64,000 nucleotides of DNA from Parabacteroides sp. (GTDB lineage Bacteria; Bacteroidota; Bacteroidia; Bacteroidales; Tannerellaceae): assembly GCA_017481945.1 (NCBI GenBank), contig JAFUOJ010000010.1, forward strand, positions 1 to 64,000. Reading direction: 5' to 3'. The notes under the pieces are model-generated. The model ran no database searches, was not told the origin of the DNA, and was given only the letters and a program-made list of their open reading frames with translations. Positions 6,232-64,000 of this stretch are shown here, piece by piece (positions within the stretch are counted from its first letter, which is position 1; each line of letters opens with the position of its first letter). Made by a program: the position numbers and the translations under genes.

Positions 6232-7870
6232 TAGATGTATTGTTCTTATTGTCCAATGAAGGGAAAGACTTTCCCTCATTTATAATTTGAATTGCCCGTT
6301 TTAAAGTAACATCATCGTTTTGGAATACGGGATAGAAGCCTGCGTCATCAAAAAAGTTACGGATGATGTATGCCTGTATCTGTTTCTCAATCAACTTACC
6401 TGAGATGTTAATTAAATTCGGACGTTTCTTGAATCCTTTTGCCGCAGCAAAGTTTGTGAAGTCATAAAGCAAAGGTTGCTGTTGCAAGTATTTATATAAC
6501 TCCTCATAGGTCTTGAAAGAAGATAGTTTCTCATAATTACGATCCGAGTAATCAAGAGCATATAGATTGATTGTCCCTGAACTGGATACGTTAGAGAAAT
6601 AGGAGGTGATACCGCTTGTGTCACGTGGAATAAAAATATCTGGCATAATACCGCCACCCCCGTAAACCGGGCGACCTATAGAGGTTTCAAATTTCTCTTC
6701 ATCATTTAATTTGATACTGTCAGCAGAATCAAATTCTCCACGCATGAAACGATTGTAAATATCATGGTCATAATCATCCTCTTTCCCTAACTCATATTTC
6801 TTTTGAATACAACGTCCGGAAGGAGTGTAATAACGAGCAATCGTTAAACGAATTTCAGATCCATCGCTTAGGTGCATGGGGGATTGTACTAAACCTTTTC
6901 CAAATGTACGGCGACCAATGATCAAACCTCGGTCGTTGTCTTGGATAGCTCCTGAAAAGATTTCGCTTGCAGAGGCAGAAAATTCATCTGTTAATACGAC
7001 AATAGGAGTCTCTTGACACGTTCCTGTACCATTTGTGTAAACATCGTTGCGTGGAAACTTTTTCCCTTGGGTATAGACGATTAGGCGACCTTCTGGCATA
7101 AATTCATTTACCATATTAATAGCTGCGTCCATATAACCTCCGGTATTTCCACGTAAGTCAATAATAAAAGAACCGCAACCTGCTTGTTTAAGCTTAGCGA
7201 TAGCTGTAATAAATTCGTTATAAGTAGTACGAGCGAACTTACTTACTTTGATGTACCCTATACCTTTACTTACTTCATAAGCAACATCTACAGAGTTGAT
7301 AGGAACATCTCCACGTGTCACATCGAAGTAAAGAAGTTCTGGCTCATTTTTACGTTTTACCCCTAACTTAACGGTACTGTTTTTAGCTCCACGTAGGGTT
7401 TTCATCACAAGCTCTTGGTTGCTTTTATTCCCAGCGAATAAAGAATCATTGATTGTGATAATACGGTCGAATGGTTTTAGACCTGCCTTCTCAGAAGGGC
7501 CTCCCGGAATGACACTAACTACTAAAATAGTATCTGTTTGCATATTGAAAGATACTCCAATACCACTGAATGAACCTTCCAGATCTTCGTTGGCACGTTG
7601 AGCGTCTTTTGCGGGAATGTAGATAGAGTGGGGGTCCAATTCGCTAAATATTTTAGGTATAGCGTCCTCTATCAGTTCACTCATGTTTACGGTGTCGACA
7701 TATTGTTCATCGATGATGTCAAGAATCGCATTAATCTTATTCCCACCTGTGTAAATATGTCTCTTCCCTTGTGTTAATCTCATATAATGATTTCCTACAA
7801 AGATACCGAGAGCAACACTTAATGCTATGATTATAGGCAACCAAACTGATAACCCTTTGTTTTTCTCCAT
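6137..7870 (-). CDS. S41 family carboxyl-terminal processing protease with PDZ domain
   Basis: A 577-residue CtpA/Prc-type serine protease. An N-terminal membrane anchor (about 9-26) places the rest in the periplasm; a PDZ domain lies around 95-175, and the catalytic region shows LRGNTGG (239-245), the nucleophile Ser300 in SASASEIF and the general-base Lys325 in RTFGKG. Such enzymes trim C-termini of exported proteins. The gene is 18 bp downstream of comEB and its 3' end overlaps the cyclo-ligase gene. The last 30 or so residues are low in conservation-like features and lie in the overlap. Confidence 0.92.
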   Translation of the reverse strand: MEKNKGLSVWLPIIIALSVALGIFVGNHYMRLTQGKRHIYTGGNKINAILDIIDEQYVDTVNMSELIEDAIPKIFSELDPHSIYIPAKDAQRANEDLEGSFSGIGVSFNMQTDTILVVSVIPGGPSEKAGLKPFDRIITINDSLFAGNKSNQELVMKTLRGAKNSTVKLGVKRKNEPELLYFDVTRGDVPINSVDVAYEVSKGIGYIKVSKFARTTYNEFITAIAKLKQAGCGSFIIDLRGNTGGYMDAAINMVNEFMPEGRLIVYTQGKKFPRNDVYTNGTGTCQETPIVVLTDEFSASASEIFSGAIQDNDRGLIIGRRTFGKGLVQSPMHLSDGSEIRLTIARYYTPSGRCIQKKYELGKEDDYDHDIYNRFMRGEFDSADSIKLNDEEKFETSIGRPVYGGGGIMPDIFIPRDTSGITSYFSNVSSSGTINLYALDYSDRNYEKLSSFKTYEELYKYLQQQPLLYDFTNFAAAKGFKKRPNLINISGKLIEKQIQAYIIRNFFDDAGFYPVFQNDDVTLKRAIQIINEGKSFPSLDNKNNTSNEIAQCQTGTSSRYGFSKEILFENYLAGSFC

Positions 7871-7888
7871 AAAGGTCTTTTTACTTTT

Positions 7889-8326
7889 TTAATCGTTAAC
7901 TTCTTCTATATAATCAATTATAACACCTGCTCGGCGCAATAAGTTGCAACCGTCTTCAACTCTATATTTTTCTGAATAGACAACTCGTTCAATTCCTGAT
8001 TGGATGATTAGTTTTGCGCATTCAATACAGGGTGCTGAAGTTACATATATAGTTGCTCCTTTACTACTGTTAGAGGAGGCGGCTACTTTAGTAATGGCAT
8101 TCGCTTCAGCATGCAGGACATAAGGCTTTGTGACATTGTTTTCATCCTCACAAATGTTTTCGAAACCTGCCGGTGTCCCATTATATCCATCAGAAATAAT
8201 CATTTGATCTTTCACGATAAGCGCTCCGACTTGGCGTCTTTTGCAATATGAATTTTCGGCCCATACAGCCGCCATTCGAAGATAGCGTTTGTCCAGCTCC
8301 AATTGCTTTTCCTTCTTATTGCACAT
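7889..8326 (-). CDS. comEB: deoxycytidylate (dCMP) deaminase
   Basis: Deaminates dCMP to dUMP for thymidylate synthesis. The cytidine/dCMP deaminase zinc site is complete: HAEANAI (His72, proton-shuttling Glu74) and PCIECAKL (Cys100, Cys103). The 145 residues match short bacterial ComEB-type enzymes. First gene of a tight operon with the S41 protease and the cyclo-ligase; the two folate/thymidylate genes flank a protease, an arrangement common in Bacteroidales. Confidence 0.93.
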   Translation of the reverse strand: MCNKKEKQLELDKRYLRMAAVWAENSYCKRRQVGALIVKDQMIISDGYNGTPAGFENICEDENNVTKPYVLHAEANAITKVAASSNSSKGATIYVTSAPCIECAKLIIQSGIERVVYSEKYRVEDGCNLLRRAGVIIDYIEEVND

Positions 8327-8473
8327 TGTTCTTTGTTTTTAAGCTATAAAGTTATATCTAAAAGTAGACAAAAGTACATATATATTGGGAGATATGGAAT
8401 AACTTAACTATAAAAATATTCCTCTTGGAATTAAAAAGGTGGTATGATGAAAGTTCTGATAGGGTTTGTTTTG

Positions 8474-8481
8474 TATATTTG
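8474..8481 (+). promoter_or_regulatory. -7 element for the small lipoprotein gene
   Basis: TATATTTG matches TAnnTTTG. It lies 23 nt before the ATG at 8505 and overlaps nearer in-frame upstream codons, which supports 8505 as the start of the small lipoprotein. Confidence 0.5.
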
Positions 8482-8504
8482 CGATGAACTTAATTTTGAT
8501 TTAT

Positions 8505-8801
8505 ATGAGAATAAAAGAAATTTTCCCCTTTGTTTTATTGGTTTTGTTTTTTGCCTGCCAAGAACGTACGGAAAAGAAAAGTATAACTAATGATTCTACT
8601 TTTGTAATTCCTGAAATGAAAGTAAAACCGTTTGAAGAGGGTCTTGCTCTTTTTACGGAACCTGTTTTTATAAAGTTGAAAAGTAATACCATGAAAATAT
8701 TTTGCCCCCTTTTAATCTTATTTAGAAAAAGGAGTTTAAGGATGGAAATAATTGGAGAGATTAAAAAATATCATAGAAAAACCTTACAATTCTTAGATTA
8801 A
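8505..8801 (+). CDS. small putative lipoprotein, possibly a gene fragment
   Basis: From ATG 8505 the product is about 98 residues: MRIKEIFPFVLLVLFFAC is a clean lipoprotein signal with the acylated Cys at 18, then a polar region. The second half (after about residue 63) turns hydrophobic and basic (FCPLLILFRKRSL) and looks unlike the first, so the gene may be frameshifted or truncated. I do not recognise the family. Monocistronic between comEB (divergent) and the purine permease. Confidence 0.5.
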   Translation: MRIKEIFPFVLLVLFFACQERTEKKSITNDSTFVIPEMKVKPFEEGLALFTEPVFIKLKSNTMKIFCPLLILFRKRSLRMEIIGEIKKYHRKTLQFLD

Positions 8802-8860
8802 AGATTGTGAGAAGTTTTTTTTATATGTAGTTTTGCAATCAATTATTAACTTTTTAGAAA

Positions 8861-59238: not shown

Positions 59239-59826
59239 TTATTGTGCTTTAGCTTGAGCACCACGAACGGCACGAGTCAATTGAACGGCACAAACAACAG
59301 CGTTCTTAGCGTTCATCAATTCAAGACCTTCGAAGTGTAATGAACCAACCTGCATAGTTTTACCTAAACCTAAGTTATCAACGTTGATGAATAACTTTTC
59401 AGGGATAGCTGTGTAGATAGCTTTCACTTTCAACTTTCTCATCTGTAAAGTCAATTTACCACCGGCTTTAACACCTTCAGCGTGACCTTCCAAAACAACC
59501 GGTACTTCCATTACTACAGGTTTGTTTTCTGATACTTCCAAGAAGTCGATATGTAAGATTGCGTCACTTACTGGTTGGAATTGAATATCTTTAACAACTG
59601 CCATTGTCTTGTTGCCATCGATAGTTAATTCTACAGCGTAGATTTCCGGAGTGTAAACCAAGTTACGAACGCTTTCTTTTGTTAATGTGAAGTGAACTAC
59701 TTTTTCACCGCCGTACAAAACAGCAGGGATTTCGTCGTTTTTACGCATTGCTTTCAATGCTCTTTTCTGATCAGCTGATGTAGCTGCGATTTCTCTTCCT
59801 TTTCCTTCTAATTGGAATGTCTTCAT
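59239..59826 (-). CDS. rplY: 50S ribosomal protein L25 (Ctc type)
   Basis: 195-residue long form of L25: N-terminal 5S-rRNA-binding domain (about 5-90; RALKAMRKNDEIPAVLYGGEK) and C-terminal TL5-like domain (about 95-180). Such long forms are also called general stress protein Ctc. First gene of rplY-pth-S4 with a consensus promoter. Confidence 0.95.
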   Translation of the reverse strand: MKTFQLEGKGREIAATSADQKRALKAMRKNDEIPAVLYGGEKVVHFTLTKESVRNLVYTPEIYAVELTIDGNKTMAVVKDIQFQPVSDAILHIDFLEVSENKPVVMEVPVVLEGHAEGVKAGGKLTLQMRKLKVKAIYTAIPEKLFINVDNLGLGKTMQVGSLHFEGLELMNAKNAVVCAVQLTRAVRGAQAKAQ

Positions 59827-59907
59827 TTCTTTAATTAATTTGTGTTACTCAAAATTAGATATTTGCTTTCTAATTTCCCATCACACGTACGGGGTTTAAA
59901 AGCGGTG

Positions 59908-59938
59908 CAAAGGTAGGCTTTTTATTTATATCTACAAA
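59908..59938 (-). promoter_or_regulatory. promoter of rplY
   Basis: On the minus strand TTTG (59935-59938) and TACCTTTG (59908-59915) are 19 bp apart, an exact match to the Bacteroidota promoter. The leader is about 75 nt. Confidence 0.8.
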
Positions 59939-59978
59939 TCTTATTTGTATGAATTTATACTTTGTGTATAAAATATAA

Positions 59979-60019
59979 TTTCCTTGGGGATAAATCGTAG
60001 GTTTATACACCCAAGGAAA
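59979..60019 (-). terminator. terminator of the steroid-reductase operon
   Basis: TTTCCTTGGG (59979-59988) pairs with CCCAAGGAAA (60010-60019), with an inner ATAAA/TTTAT pairing; 10 bp past the stop of the dehydrogenase. Confidence 0.75.
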
Positions 60020-60029
60020 TAGATTTTAG

Positions 60030-60884
60030 TCATAAATGGAATCCCTTTTGCCTGATTAATTGCTCGGTATCCTCCCATAATTGCTTTTGTAGGGGATGTT
60101 TCCGAATGCCTTTCGAGACTTTTTTCTCTTTGCAATTGGCATAACATTGTCCTGTCTTCCCCTTGATTTCATCGGATAATGCCAAGTGGACGGCAGTAGA
60201 AGCTCCCTGTGCGGGTGTTTTTATAAATGGACGGAAGACAACATCCGTGATGGGATCGAACCAAGCTTGCATAGAGATCATATTGGTATCTACGATTCCG
60301 GGGTCTGAAGCATTTACTATAATCCCCTTCTCTTGAACTCGTTCTGCCAGCTCTTGAGAGAAGAGTTGCAGAGCTAATTTAGAGTTTCCATAGACAGGAA
60401 TACGAAAGAAAGGTCCACTTTTTCCCTTCTCAAAAAAGACATGAGGTTCGATTTTCCCTATTATGCTTGCACAAGAGACGGTATTGACGATACGGCTATC
60501 GGTCGGCATAAGGGGTAATAATTGACGAGTAAGCATATAAGGGGCAACGTAGTTGACACTTATAATGGTCTCCAATCCATCTTCTGTTCTTCGTATAGGG
60601 GTTGTTAGGATACCGGCATTATTCATCAATAGGTTAATGGGACGTCCCTCCTTGAGTAGCTGTTCCGTAAAAGAATTGACAGAAGATAAGGAAGCCAAGT
60701 TGATAGTACGAACTTCTATTTGTGAGTTCCCTGTCCCTTGCTTGATTCTTTCACAAATAGGAGTTGCCTTTTTCAAAGTTTGACAAGCCATTATTACTTC
60801 GTAACCAGCTTTGGCTACCTCTTTCGTAATCTCTTGTCCCATGCCTCCATCGGCCCCTGTTATGATCGCTAATCCTTTTCCCAT
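60030..60884 (-). CDS. short-chain dehydrogenase, candidate 3-beta-hydroxysteroid dehydrogenase
   Basis: 284-residue classical SDR: cofactor loop TGADGGMG (9-16), NNAG (88-91), catalytic Ser in NTVSCAS (about 134-140), Tyr165 and Lys169 (YGNSK). Resembles retinol-dehydrogenase-like SDRs. Placed last in an operon with a steroid 5-alpha-reductase and an OYE-type reductase, it most likely reduces or oxidises the 3-keto/hydroxy group of bile acids, as described for the 3-beta-HSDH of gut Bacteroidales; this is inference from context. Its ATG overlaps the stop of the upstream gene (TAATG). Confidence 0.85.
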   Translation of the reverse strand: MGKGLAIITGADGGMGQEITKEVAKAGYEVIMACQTLKKATPICERIKQGTGNSQIEVRTINLASLSSVNSFTEQLLKEGRPINLLMNNAGILTTPIRRTEDGLETIISVNYVAPYMLTRQLLPLMPTDSRIVNTVSCASIIGKIEPHVFFEKGKSGPFFRIPVYGNSKLALQLFSQELAERVQEKGIIVNASDPGIVDTNMISMQAWFDPITDVVFRPFIKTPAQGASTAVHLALSDEIKGKTGQCYANCKEKKVSKGIRKHPLQKQLWEDTEQLIRQKGFHL

Positions 60885-62110
60885 TATTTATATTCTAATT
60901 GTTTGATTTCTTTGATGATACCTTTTGGAAGGTTTTGCATGTGTTTATGGCATGCCATTTCAAGTGAGTACATGCGGGCAATGCAATAATTACTATGTCC
61001 ACAATCACAACGAGCATGTTCGTCTTCTTTCATCTTATTGACAAAAGCCGGATCGTTCACCAAAGCACGCGCCATGCTTACAAACTCAAATCCATCATTT
61101 AAGACCTCTTCGATTTTATCTCGTGAGGTTAGACCTCCTACGTAGACCAGAGGCATTTTGAGTGCTTTTCTAAACTTCAAAGCGTCTTCCAAGAAGTAGG
61201 CCTCTTTGAATGGTTCGGTAGGAATCATAAAACGACCTGCCAGTTTAACACATGGGGGTAACCAGCCAGCTGGCATATAATGCGTCATTGTGTGGATAGG
61301 CATAGCTCCGCGCATAACGTACATGGGGGCTTTACTTACGAATCCTCCACTAAGTATCAATGCTTGTGCTCCACATTCGTCTTGTAGTGTACGAGCGACC
61401 TCTAATGTTTCGTCCAACTCCATACCTCCTTTAAATCCGTCTCGCATATTCATCTTGACCAGTACGGCCATATCCGATCCGGCTGCCTTCATGACTTCGT
61501 CCATACACATCTTCATGAAACGCATGCGATTTTGAAGGCTTCTTCCGTATTCATCTTTTCGATGGTTGGTGTAAGGAGAGAGGAACTGGCTGATGAGATA
61601 CCCATGACCGGCATGGATTTCTACGGCATCCATACCCGCTTCACGTGCCAAATGAACTGCTTGTCCGAAGGCTTTTGACATGGCTACGATTTCGGAAGGT
61701 CTCATCCCTCGGACGAATGTCGGGGAGTAGAGGTTAAAACCGGTGGAAGCAGAGATAGGGGTACATCCACAAATGTTCTTATGTGACATGTTCCCACAAT
61801 GTCCCAATTGGATAGAAGCGGCTGCTCCCTCTTTATGGATAGCGTCCGAGATTCGTTTAATACCCGGAATAATTTCCGGACGCATCCATAATTGACGCTC
61901 AAAAGAAAGTCCACTTTGGGTAACGGCTGCATACGCCAATGTCGTCATTCCAATCCCTCCGGCAGCCACGGAAGTATGGTAATTATAGAGCATATCAGAG
62001 GGGGCATTCCCCGGACACATACTTTCAAAAGCTGCTGCTCGTATCGTTCGATTACGCAAGGTTAAAGGTCCGATTTTACCCGGCGTAAAAAGTATAGATT
62101 CTTTTCCCAT
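60884..62110 (-). CDS. Old-Yellow-Enzyme family NADH:flavin oxidoreductase, candidate 5-beta-reductase
   Basis: 408 residues forming a single FMN-binding TIM barrel: LTLRNRTIRAA (16-26), QLGHCG (101-106), HAGHGYLISQFLSPYTN (166-182) with His166 and His169, and YVGGLTS near 325. The C-terminus has Cys368, Cys370, Cys376 and Cys387, a spacing that could hold an iron-sulfur cluster as in BaiCD/BaiH relatives, but the second (pyridine-nucleotide) domain of BaiCD is absent. In this operon it fits the delta4-3-ketosteroid 5-beta-reductase (5BR). 25 bp after the 5-alpha-reductase gene. Confidence 0.87.
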   Translation of the reverse strand: MGKESILFTPGKIGPLTLRNRTIRAAAFESMCPGNAPSDMLYNYHTSVAAGGIGMTTLAYAAVTQSGLSFERQLWMRPEIIPGIKRISDAIHKEGAAASIQLGHCGNMSHKNICGCTPISASTGFNLYSPTFVRGMRPSEIVAMSKAFGQAVHLAREAGMDAVEIHAGHGYLISQFLSPYTNHRKDEYGRSLQNRMRFMKMCMDEVMKAAGSDMAVLVKMNMRDGFKGGMELDETLEVARTLQDECGAQALILSGGFVSKAPMYVMRGAMPIHTMTHYMPAGWLPPCVKLAGRFMIPTEPFKEAYFLEDALKFRKALKMPLVYVGGLTSRDKIEEVLNDGFEFVSMARALVNDPAFVNKMKEDEHARCDCGHSNYCIARMYSLEMACHKHMQNLPKGIIKEIKQLEYK

Positions 62111-62135
62111 TTTTTATCAAAGAGTAATTTTTAAG

Positions 62136-62903
62136 TTAATAGATAAAAGGAATCACTCGTTTCCGATTTCCTATTTCATTGCCAAACATGGCTTTATATT
62201 TATGATAGATCGTATTGGCCCGAGGTATTAAGTTGGCTGCTGTCCACCAAGCGAAGACGGCTCCACTTGCGCTCCATGTAAGGATGGCAAATCCGCACCA
62301 TTCCAATATTTCACCAAAATAGTTGGCTGATGTCACGTAGTTGAATACTCCCCCCTTAGGTAGATAATGGTTCGTATCTCCCGGCTTACGTAGATGACGG
62401 ACGATATGGTCCGAATGGAGATTGATTCCCATCCCGATAAAGAAGAGGAGTGTCCCTATGAGGAATTGTGGGCTATAGAGCCAACTTTGTGTGTACATAT
62501 CCTCCGGTGCTAAATAGAAAAGCCATTCGCCTTGCATGTATCCATTTAGGATATTGAAGGTAATTCCCATTAGCATAATACCGATAGGCATTTTACTTTT
62601 CCCCTTCATCAATAGCGGGAAGACGAAGGAACGTTGAATGTAATGCAATTCAAAGAATAGGAACATGAGGAGGGGAGCAGTCTCGAATTGTCGTTCCGAG
62701 CCACTCCATAGTAGAAGCATAACGATAAAGACCGGCGCTTCCATACAGATCCACGCTACCCGATTGGATATTGGGAATCCCCATTTCTTATCGAATAGCA
62801 TACCATAGCCTGCTTCAACGAAGTATAGTGCTATAAAAACAATGGCAGCGATCACTGCCATTATTGTTAGAAATATCGAGAAATACTCATTCGTCATTTC
62901 CAT
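62136..62903 (-). CDS. steroid 5-alpha-reductase family membrane protein (3-oxo-5-alpha-steroid 4-dehydrogenase)
   Basis: 255 residues with about seven membrane helices. It carries nearly the whole SRD5A signature: FELHYIQRSFVFPL (84-97; Glu85, Tyr88, Arg91), NLHSD (161-165), LPKGGVFNYVTSANYFGEILEW (from 181; Asn194, Tyr195, Glu198, Glu201), a RANTIYHKYKAMFG segment (about 228-241) and a C-terminal RKRVIPFIY. Reduces the delta4 bond of 3-ketosteroids or 3-oxo-bile acids with NADPH to the allo (5-alpha) form. Its start overlaps the end of the regulator gene by 17 bp. First enzyme of the operon. Confidence 0.92.
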   Translation of the reverse strand: MEMTNEYFSIFLTIMAVIAAIVFIALYFVEAGYGMLFDKKWGFPISNRVAWICMEAPVFIVMLLLWSGSERQFETAPLLMFLFFELHYIQRSFVFPLLMKGKSKMPIGIMLMGITFNILNGYMQGEWLFYLAPEDMYTQSWLYSPQFLIGTLLFFIGMGINLHSDHIVRHLRKPGDTNHYLPKGGVFNYVTSANYFGEILEWCGFAILTWSASGAVFAWWTAANLIPRANTIYHKYKAMFGNEIGNRKRVIPFIY

Positions 62904-63588
62904 GTGTAGATAGTTTATACCCCTTTCCGTGGTAATTAATAATCTTGATTAATGGGTCCTCCTGTAGGATTTTACGTAGCTTAGTGATGTAGACGTCCAT
63001 ACTACGTGCATTGAAATAATTGTCGCTTTTCCAAATGATATGGAGGATATAGGAGCGATCTACTACGTCGTTCCCATGTAAACACAACAGGTGTAACAAC
63101 TCGCTTTCTTTCGTGGTCAATTTGATCACCCGGTCTTCAACCTTTAGAAGTTGCTTTTGGGATTCAAATTTAAACTTACCGAAACGAAAATTCTTCGCTG
63201 TCTGTCTTGACTCCGGTTCATATCGACGTATGATTGCTTTGATACGTGCCAATAGGACGTCATAGTCGAAAGGAATGCGTATCACATCGTCCGCCTCTAA
63301 ACTAAAGAGCAAATGGAGATCCTCTCTACTCGGCTGGTCAAGCAAGTAGATGATAGGAATTGGGTTATCAGCCCCTCGGATAAGGTTAGATAAGGTATGC
63401 ACCCCTTTTTCCAACGGATGATATTGAATGATACAGATGTTGAATTTATCGAATGCAAAAGCGTGATAGGCTTCGTTTTCGGAATCAAAAGCCTGTACTT
63501 TTTGTCCCATGAATTTCAACTGTTCTCTCATGGATTCTCCCTGCTTGCGGTCTTTATTGAAAATGAGTATGTTAAATTTATTATCCAT
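62887..63588 (-). CDS. OmpR-type regulator with a degenerate receiver domain
   Basis: 233 residues from ATG 63588. Receiver-like domain (about 5-118) and an intact winged-helix DNA-binding domain (about 132-228; LTTKESELLHLLCLH, RSYILHIIWKSDNYFNARSMDVYITKLRK, YHGKGYKL). All five phosphotransfer positions are changed: the acidic pair reads Asn11-Lys12, the phosphoacceptor Asp is Gln55, the switch Thr is Leu83 and the Lys is Ile105. It should not be controlled by a histidine kinase in the normal way. Lead gene of the steroid-reductase operon (17-bp overlap). The longer open frame to 63657 crosses the promoter and is unlikely to be used. Confidence 0.9.
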   Translation of the reverse strand: MDNKFNILIFNKDRKQGESMREQLKFMGQKVQAFDSENEAYHAFAFDKFNICIIQYHPLEKGVHTLSNLIRGADNPIPIIYLLDQPSREDLHLLFSLEADDVIRIPFDYDVLLARIKAIIRRYEPESRQTAKNFRFGKFKFESQKQLLKVEDRVIKLTTKESELLHLLCLHGNDVVDRSYILHIIWKSDNYFNARSMDVYITKLRKILQEDPLIKIINYHGKGYKLSTHGNDE

Positions 63589-63682: not shown

Positions 63683-63700
63683 TTGATTAATTTTGATTAA
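63683..63700. promoter_or_regulatory. 10-bp-spaced direct repeat upstream of the steroid-reductase promoter
   Basis: TTGATTAA occurs at 63683-63690 and again at 63693-63700, one helical turn apart, about 40 bp upstream of the -7 element. OmpR-family regulators usually bind such tandem repeats. AT-rich, so chance is possible. Confidence 0.4.
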
Positions 63701-63805
63701 ATAAATTAGAATGTTTTACGAGTCTCCGGATTCGTCTAAAACGATAGTCTGATACCTCTTTGATGTTGAAAGACTGTTATTCTTTGGTAAAAAATGAAAC
63801 ATCCC

Positions 63806-63864: not shown

Positions 63865-64000
63865 ATGATGACACTTCCTATAATCGAATTGGAAAGGCTA
63901 AATCAAAGTATGACTTCCCGAGATAGCTATCAAGATGTTCTTTCTATTGTAGATGTAAATGGCAATATAGATATTGAACATTCTGACTCTCCGGACCGGT
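63865..64000 (+). CDS. unidentified gene, 5' part only
   Basis: An open frame starting ATGATG at 63865 runs off the window: MMTLPIIELERLN, then a polar segment rich in Ser and Asp to SDSPDR. About 45 residues are visible and I do not recognise the family; no signal peptide or motif is seen. A good promoter precedes it, so it is probably real. Divergent from the steroid-reductase operon. Confidence 0.55.
   Translation, partial: MMTLPIIELERLNQSMTSRDSYQDVLSIVDVNGNIDIEHSDSPDR

Follow-up and report, generated by a model that had tools for sequence, protein, structure and literature searches.

Gut Bacteroidales such as Parabacteroides merdae, Odoribacteraceae and Bacteroides carry a set of a 5-alpha-reductase (5AR), a 5-beta-reductase (5BR) and a 3-beta-hydroxysteroid dehydrogenase (3-beta-HSDH). 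The available parts of reviews report this enzyme set for isoallo-lithocholic acid in Bacteroides and list Parabacteroides among the carriers of 5AR and 5BR. Here we describe a four-gene run from a Parabacteroides sp. in which genes of the same three families follow a gene for an OmpR-type regulator (RR). The run lies on the minus strand of the analyzed stretch of DNA (the window; 64,000 nucleotides, positions 1 to 64,000 of contig JAFUOJ010000010.1), and the source genome assembly (GCA_017481945.1) is 2.79 Mb in size and 83% complete. The likeness to the described set is one of family and gene adjacency within the same host group. The locus differs from that set in that RR overlaps the 5AR gene and in that, in relatives, the enzyme genes run on from an efflux block.

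RR itself belongs to a sister clade of RprY of the RprXY system, with the same domain make-up and an identical presumed recognition helix; RprY, however, is canonical and encoded beside the kinase gene rprX, whereas RR has neither an adjacent kinase gene nor the switch residues. In Porphyromonas gingivalis, RprY is described as an orphan without RprX that is controlled by acetylation (PMC6032018, available text). JadR1, SimReg1, HP1043 and CmrT, as far as the accessible descriptions go, are likewise OmpR/PhoB-type regulators with missing phosphorylation residues, often encoded inside the cluster that they control. In contrast to them, RR is derived from RprY and lies together with genes for steroid reductases and an RND pump, and 13 of the 15 members of its clade carry Lys as the second residue of the acid pair. 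RND operons of B. thetaiotaomicron, including BT2792-2795 and BT2685-2689, are induced by bile salts according to the text available (PMC10994844, PMC11078008), and for B. fragilis P207 the available text singles out a four-gene efflux operon as part of the response to deoxycholate and as important for fitness in crude bile (PMC10197588). As a likeness to these bile-induced Bacteroides operons, the TetR-TolC-MFP-RND-PII order of B. fragilis equals the upstream half of the locus in relatives of the window; pump and 5AR-OYE-SDR genes (SDR, short-chain dehydrogenase) lie apart in B. fragilis, are joined in Parabacteroides, and the pump is gone in the window.

We consider it somewhat probable that the window retains the 3' half of a Parabacteroides efflux-and-reduction run, with RR as a phosphorylation-independent regulator and a divergent AraC-family gene (together with TetR, where kept) as the main on-switch. 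The sequences themselves show the gene order in relatives, the missing pump block in the window, one RR clade that neighbors RprY, the lost phosphorylation residues and, in close relatives, selection against change. The four genes of the run are as follows.

62887..63588, minus strand: RR, an OmpR-type regulator with a degenerate (pseudo) receiver, a paralogue of RprY, 233 aa
62136..62903, minus strand: 5AR, a membrane protein of the 3-oxo-5-alpha-steroid 4-dehydrogenase family, 255 aa (PF02544, 1.8e-45)
60884..62110, minus strand: OYE, an FMN oxidoreductase and candidate 5-beta-reductase, 408 aa (PF00724, 1.1e-51)
60030..60884, minus strand: SDR, a short-chain dehydrogenase and candidate 3-beta-HSDH, 284 aa (PF00106, 1.5e-31)

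The RR and 5AR frames share 17 bp, the 5AR and OYE genes are 25 bp apart, and OYE and SDR meet at a TAATG junction with a 1-bp overlap. An earlier note on this DNA (the original prediction) had given these coordinates and junctions, which are exact to the base. It had also assigned the enzyme families as we find them, with the Pfam domains Steroid_dh in 5AR, Oxidored_FMN in OYE and adh_short in SDR, next to Trans_reg_C in RR, and with the key residues of 5AR and SDR invariant (see below). The RR/5AR frame overlap, compared with mechanically chosen start codons, is kept in all 11 loci with contiguous RR-5AR-OYE-SDR genes (10 of the 38 genus genomes compared, plus G408, a relative outside the genus). 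The ratio of nonsynonymous to synonymous rates (dN/dS) was calculated for seven pairs. In the five close pairs of relatives it was below 0.25 for all four genes (0.07-0.15 for RR, 0.02-0.05 for 5AR and OYE, and 0.04-0.23 for SDR), although most genes in two of these pairs had a dS close to 1 or higher, and the RR compared for L175-L177 carries 38-39 extra N-terminal residues overlapping the PII gene. The recurrent overlap, taken together with these low ratios, suggests that the arrangement is more than chance. The two pairs that include the window were mostly saturated at synonymous sites and gave values only for OYE with L173 (0.022) and for the receiver with L174 (0.26); thus dN/dS says nothing about the window RR's own branch.

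Among the 38 genus genomes, an OYE match was found in 36, some of them only fragments (G474, G502, G507 and G496), and all 36 neighborhoods were read; G417 and G498 gave no OYE match. The gene order in relatives is a divergent AraC gene followed by (TetR)-TolC-MFP-RND-PII-RR-5AR-OYE-SDR; from the spacing, we infer a single mRNA for this longer run. RND and P-II genes lie upstream of RR, in the same direction, in eight of the ten four-gene genus loci; of the remaining two, the contig of G504 begins inside PII, and the tenth is the window, which has no efflux block. MFP and TolC genes precede RND in the pump loci, and TetR is present in 12 of the 13 pump-bearing loci headed by AraC, being absent from G482. 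The P-II family gene encodes 97 residues (PF00543, 28.4 bits against a cut-off of 25) and ends 6 to 11 bp before RR in L143, L173, L174 and L178; in L175-L177 it was located by tblastn and is overlapped by the longer RR start. In the four-gene loci of G451 and G480, P-II and RR are separated by the gene for a protein of 185 aa that has no Pfam match. A conserved protein of 185-196 aa, likewise without a Pfam match, was observed between P-II and RR or 5AR in L170, L171, L147, L157 and L244. The stand-alone TetR-TolC-MFP-RND-PII run of B. fragilis is 64% identical in RND, 67% in MFP, 58% in PII, 48% in TolC and 41% in TetR. As a separate observation, a P-II-like gene consistently closes the RND operon in both Parabacteroides (e.g., L174, 8813-9106) and B. 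fragilis.

G482 shares the neighbors of the window: AraC-DUF308-argB-ABC-582 aa flanks the locus at one end and rplY-pth at the opposite end. The difference is that G482 has TolC-MFP-RND-PII between AraC and RR and the window does not. In the window's own genome, no RND protein with more than 30% identity to the relatives' pump and no P-II match was found, an empty result that in an 83% complete assembly shows nothing by itself. The more distant G289 and G465 also carry the pump at this place, and since it is kept there and in G482, the most economical interpretation is a loss within the window lineage. Loss of the block would have left RR at the head of the run; its leading position in the window thus looks like the result of a deletion, that is, a derived state. 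The original prediction of an operon led by its own regulator therefore describes the window, where RR is at the head and the frames overlap, and does not carry over to the genus, where RR sits behind RND-PII in most four-gene loci; we rejected a leading regulator as a general rule. AraC-headed loci without the pump also occur in G490, G460, G506 and G507. In G470, the pump, PII, RR and 5AR are on another contig, apart from OYE-SDR, with RR and 5AR side by side. In L166 (G474, ~6370-8837), we also observed a deletion that fuses the first 609 residues' worth of RND to OYE from about residue 186; it truncates both the pump and OYE, and no PII remains.

The regulator is not a constant companion of the enzymes. 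RR of this clade was found in 14 of the 38 genus genomes (window, G289, G465, G460, G470, G451, G480, G504, G482, G105, G448, G437, G454 and G500) and outside the genus in one relative, G408, leaving 24 genus genomes without it. In G484, G468, G427, G422, G431 and G476, 5AR, OYE and SDR matched, and RR and the pump were not in the fetched stretch, which holds little upstream DNA for G476. Many other genus genomes lack 5AR and combine OYE with another SDR. In L148-L156, Parabacteroides loci without 5AR, the protein after OYE is another adh_short SDR of ~263 aa, suggesting that different SDRs can occupy this position of the locus. Among the loci compared, L167, L172, L222 and L223 end at contig ends and L165 has little upstream DNA. 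The wider sample of named 5AR loci consisted of the best 80 of 156; outside Parabacteroides, up to 6 kb of flank was read. The nearest named 5AR loci are from Parabacteroides: five of the 80 are close Parabacteroides loci, and all five have RR. The other 75 have OYE in 48 cases and SDR in 18, and none has RR, PII or this pump within the flanks read. From these counts, 5AR-OYE looks like the older pair and SDR like a common addition, with RR and the pump as additions seen in Parabacteroides and G408. RR is, on this gene census, a minority partner of these enzymes. The original prediction had named the absence of the regulator from most homologous clusters as evidence to the contrary, and such absence is what we found in the loci read. 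As side observations, many Paludibacteraceae loci (within L071-L100 and L119-L139) have ~310-345-aa proteins just before 5AR. In rumen Bacteroidales, a ~336-aa protein starting like MSKLAVVILNWNGK, presumably glycosyltransferase-like, stands just before 5AR, mostly without OYE nearby.

The receiver of the window RR has lost its phosphorylation residues; the original prediction was right in calling the regulator atypical. The protein matches Trans_reg_C with 61.5 bits, and its receiver match (27.8 bits) is below the 30.2-bit cut-off. The five phosphorylation positions are N11, K12, Q55, L83 and I105; the acid pair, the phospho-Asp, the Thr/Ser and the Lys are all gone. A recognizable receiver fold without catalytic residues corresponds to the definition of a pseudo-receiver in the available text of a review (PMC12632262). 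A structure model built from six sequences predicts the expected fold, with receiver and winged helix intact (mean pLDDT 82.5, pTM 0.53), and offers no new lead. At position 12, the Mg-binding acid aligned with CheY D13, 13 of the 15 clade members have K and two have Q; all 23 RprY sequences examined have D there and are canonical, and RprY is near-identical across the genus. Thr83 is kept in one of the 15 RRs, with Ser in one more. R104 is cluster-specific (15 of 15 RRs, vs T in RprY). In view of the missing residues, the window RR is most likely a phosphorylation-independent pseudo-receiver regulator rather than a two-component output.

The DNA-binding half of RR is better conserved than its receiver. 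Invariant columns across the clade number 27 of 112 in the DNA-binding half and 7 of 121 in the receiver, and the window RR and RprY are 56% and 32% identical in these two parts, respectively. The presumed recognition helix, NARSMDVYITKLRK, is identical in the window RR and in RprY of its own genome. In a tree of 15 RRs, 23 RprY sequences and seven other OmpR proteins set as outside, the RRs formed one clade (100/99) that was sister to RprY, and RprY plus RR was separated from the other OmpR proteins with 99/98. RR as RprY itself was rejected, since it scored 227 bits vs the 370 needed for the NCBIfam equivalog NF051850 and falls in a separate clade. Its neighbors are AraC and 5AR, with no adjacent rprX; the true RprY, with its kinase gene, sits on contig C40.

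Two other accounts of RR bear on these receiver data. In the first, which as a mechanism corresponds to the heart of the original prediction, the pseudo-receiver would be a ligand receptor: a bile acid or steroid, as substrate or product, would bind to it and so gate DNA binding, in the manner of JadR1 and RedZ, both of which are inhibited by pathway end products according to the available review text on ligand binding by pseudo-receivers (PMC12632262). SimReg1, an atypical OmpR-type regulator, controls enzymes and an exporter and leaves DNA in the presence of product extracts (PMC3261101, available text). The location of RR, enzymes and pump at one locus and the cluster-specific R104 would fit such a role, but the few invariant columns of the receiver argue against a ligand site shared across the clade, and we regard this account as doubtful. 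In the second, which we think quite unlikely, the window RR is decaying: its receiver would drift after pump loss, and the gene would be held only by the 5AR overlap. Its terminal branch (0.75) is the longest in its eight-member subclade, and Q55, L83 and I105 are extra losses, as decay would predict. However, the frame is intact over 233 aa, and the DNA-binding part remains 59-68% identical to the nearest relatives, compared with 40-46% for the receiver.

Upstream of RR, a 276-bp spacer separates the run from the divergent AraC gene, and a hairpin follows SDR at the other end. The features of these flanks are given below.

63865..64000, plus strand: 5' part of the AraC-family gene, 303 aa, which runs past the window to 64776 of the contig (HTH_18, 4e-18)
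63784..63800, minus strand: GTTTCATTTTTTACCAA, a block conserved in the spacer that separates AraC from the operon, with exact copies in 10 of the 13 spacers aligned, window included
63684..63700, minus strand: direct repeat TTAATCA-N3-TTAATCA, a weak candidate operator and the sole exact copy in its own genome
63640..63647, minus strand: TATATTTG, a candidate box 52 bp before the RR start codon that fits TAnnTTTG, the Bacteroidetes -7 pattern
59978..60020, minus strand: hairpin past SDR, a possible transcript end (fold of -21.2 kcal/mol for 59940-60035, z -4.37)

None of 200 shuffles gave a hairpin as good. A scan of 59700-60200 for consensus sigma-70 promoters and terminators, which is not built for Bacteroidetes promoters, found no promoter and no minus-strand terminator. 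Three further genes in the same direction lie 3' of the hairpin, presumably rplY, pth and an S4-domain gene. The TTAATCA repeat was picked only after it had been seen; with up to two mismatches it had two sites in the window vs a shuffle mean of 2.12, with up to one mismatch it had six sites in its own genome vs one for a reversed control, and it was not found in the spacers of relatives, which leaves it a weak operator candidate. The spacer alignment covered 13 of the 18 AraC-headed loci and left out L145, L151, L166, L221 and L222.

AraC genes 53-76% identical to that of the window head 17 other loci, giving 18 in all (17 in the genus, plus G408), with or without RR. This, too, departs from the original prediction of an operon led by its own regulator. 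These loci, the identical recognition helices of RR and RprY, and the frequent enzyme loci without RR both inside and outside the genus also suit the view that AraC (and TetR where present) runs the operon, while RR, a linked gene, would chiefly tune or oppose the RprY regulon and hardly concern the enzymes. On the other side stand the RR/5AR overlap, invariably kept in four-gene loci, and the adjacency of the two genes in the moved block of G470; we see this view as a tentative alternative, short of an even chance.

The preferred reading, that of a truncated efflux-and-reduction run, would work as follows. Bile acids or other steroids entering the cell would be pumped out (in relatives) and would have their 3-oxo-delta4 rings reduced by 5AR, OYE and SDR. 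The main on-switch would more likely be the divergent AraC, and TetR where kept, than RR. In RR, Lys in place of the Mg-binding Asp would replace the phosphate switch. CheY D13K is constitutively active according to the available text (PMC4671073), which suggests that a receiver with Lys at this position need not await phosphate. RR output would then follow the amount of RR, tied to the enzymes through the shared mRNA and overlapping frames. Available review text lists control by amount (transcription) and by ligand, among others, for pseudo-receivers (PMC12632262), and the overlap of the RR gene with the first enzyme gene fits control by amount. Through its helix, RR would bind RprY-type sites and provide feed-forward or auto-regulation. 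In the window, pump loss would have left AraC facing RR, which would now have its own promoter. The signal from bile acids or steroids that the original prediction had proposed as inducer is likewise inferred, and the bile-induced RND operons of Bacteroides make a bile signal plausible by analogy.

Several points weigh against this reading. The phospho-Asp is kept in 11 of 15 RRs and Lys105 in 13 of 15, so that some members of the clade may still accept phosphate. The tree program flags long branches, among them G460, G408 and the window RR. The GTTTCATTTTTTACCAA block was not seen in the spacers of the three pump-less loci L145, L151 and L221, and no AraC gene turned up in L241 and L242, or within the stretches fetched for L144, L152, L156, L158, L168 and L169. 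The assignment of BT2685-2689 as the pump counterpart is our guess from gene count and a neighboring gene, not from sequence comparison. The roles of TetR, AraC and RR are guesses from gene position, and expression, DNA binding and enzyme action are predictions from sequence. A D13K-type change failed to activate EpsW, according to the available text (PMC4671073).

The enzymes themselves carry conserved active-site features. 5AR matches, over nearly its full length, the solved bacterial 3-oxo-5-alpha-steroid 4-dehydrogenase 7c83 (7.3e-59) and the human SRD5A2 structure 7bw1 (7.4e-43). E55 and Y88, invariant among 97 sequences, align with SRD5A2 substrate contacts. The catalytic tetrad of SDR (N111/S137/Y165/K169) is invariant among 41. 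OYE consists of a single OYE domain and a cysteine-rich C-terminus, with C105, C370, C376 and C387 present in 85 of 85. C370, C376 and C387 together with C105 may hold an Fe-S cluster; their spacing differs from that in FadH/BaiCD. BaiCD/BaiP/OsrB-type flavoenzymes of Firmicutes are also of the OYE family and reduce 3-oxo-delta4 steroids, as far as the accessible descriptions go, but the one-domain window protein is far below the BaiCD cut-off. An identity as BaiCD was rejected (173.8 bits vs the 825 needed for NCBIfam NF041087, a model of 642 positions, at a length of 408 aa).

Adjacent 5AR-, OYE-family and SDR genes in a gut member of the Bacteroidales place the run with the 5AR/5BR/3-beta-HSDH clusters, and the three enzymes fit that set and are predicted to act on bile acids or steroids. 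They might instead act mainly on other cyclic ketones or enones, such as plant sterols or vitamin- or quinone-like compounds, since many 5AR loci come from rumen and other metagenome-assembled genomes, where host bile is scarce. The alignment of conserved 5AR residues with the SRD5A2 contacts, the linkage to the pump and the reviews' attribution, in the parts available, of the same set in Bacteroides and Parabacteroides to isoallo-lithocholic acid argue against such substrates, which we consider unlikely.

Isoallo-type bile acids from gut Bacteroidales act on immune cells, according to the available parts of reviews. A search of open-licence literature, which left out the primary papers on the enzyme set, gave no account of RR or of a unit that joins efflux to reduction. 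The enzymes are genetically linked to an efflux pump of a type induced by bile, which suggests that A-ring reduction is part of bile defense. For this unit, AraC, TetR and the pseudo-RprY can be named as three candidate regulators. A bolder idea, to which we give little credence, is that Parabacteroides made a one-component bile-acid or steroid receptor, with direct ligand sensing by the pseudo-receiver, from an RprY-type two-component regulator and tied efflux to A-ring reduction in one transcript, and that the window dropped the pump and re-tuned the receptor, as the long branch of its RR would suggest; if so, each entering molecule would be either pumped out or made less harmful. The RR clade, in which 13 of 15 members carry Lys where CheY has D13, occurs in the same genus as a canonical RprY that hardly varies, and it offers a natural experiment on the loss of the phosphorylation switch.

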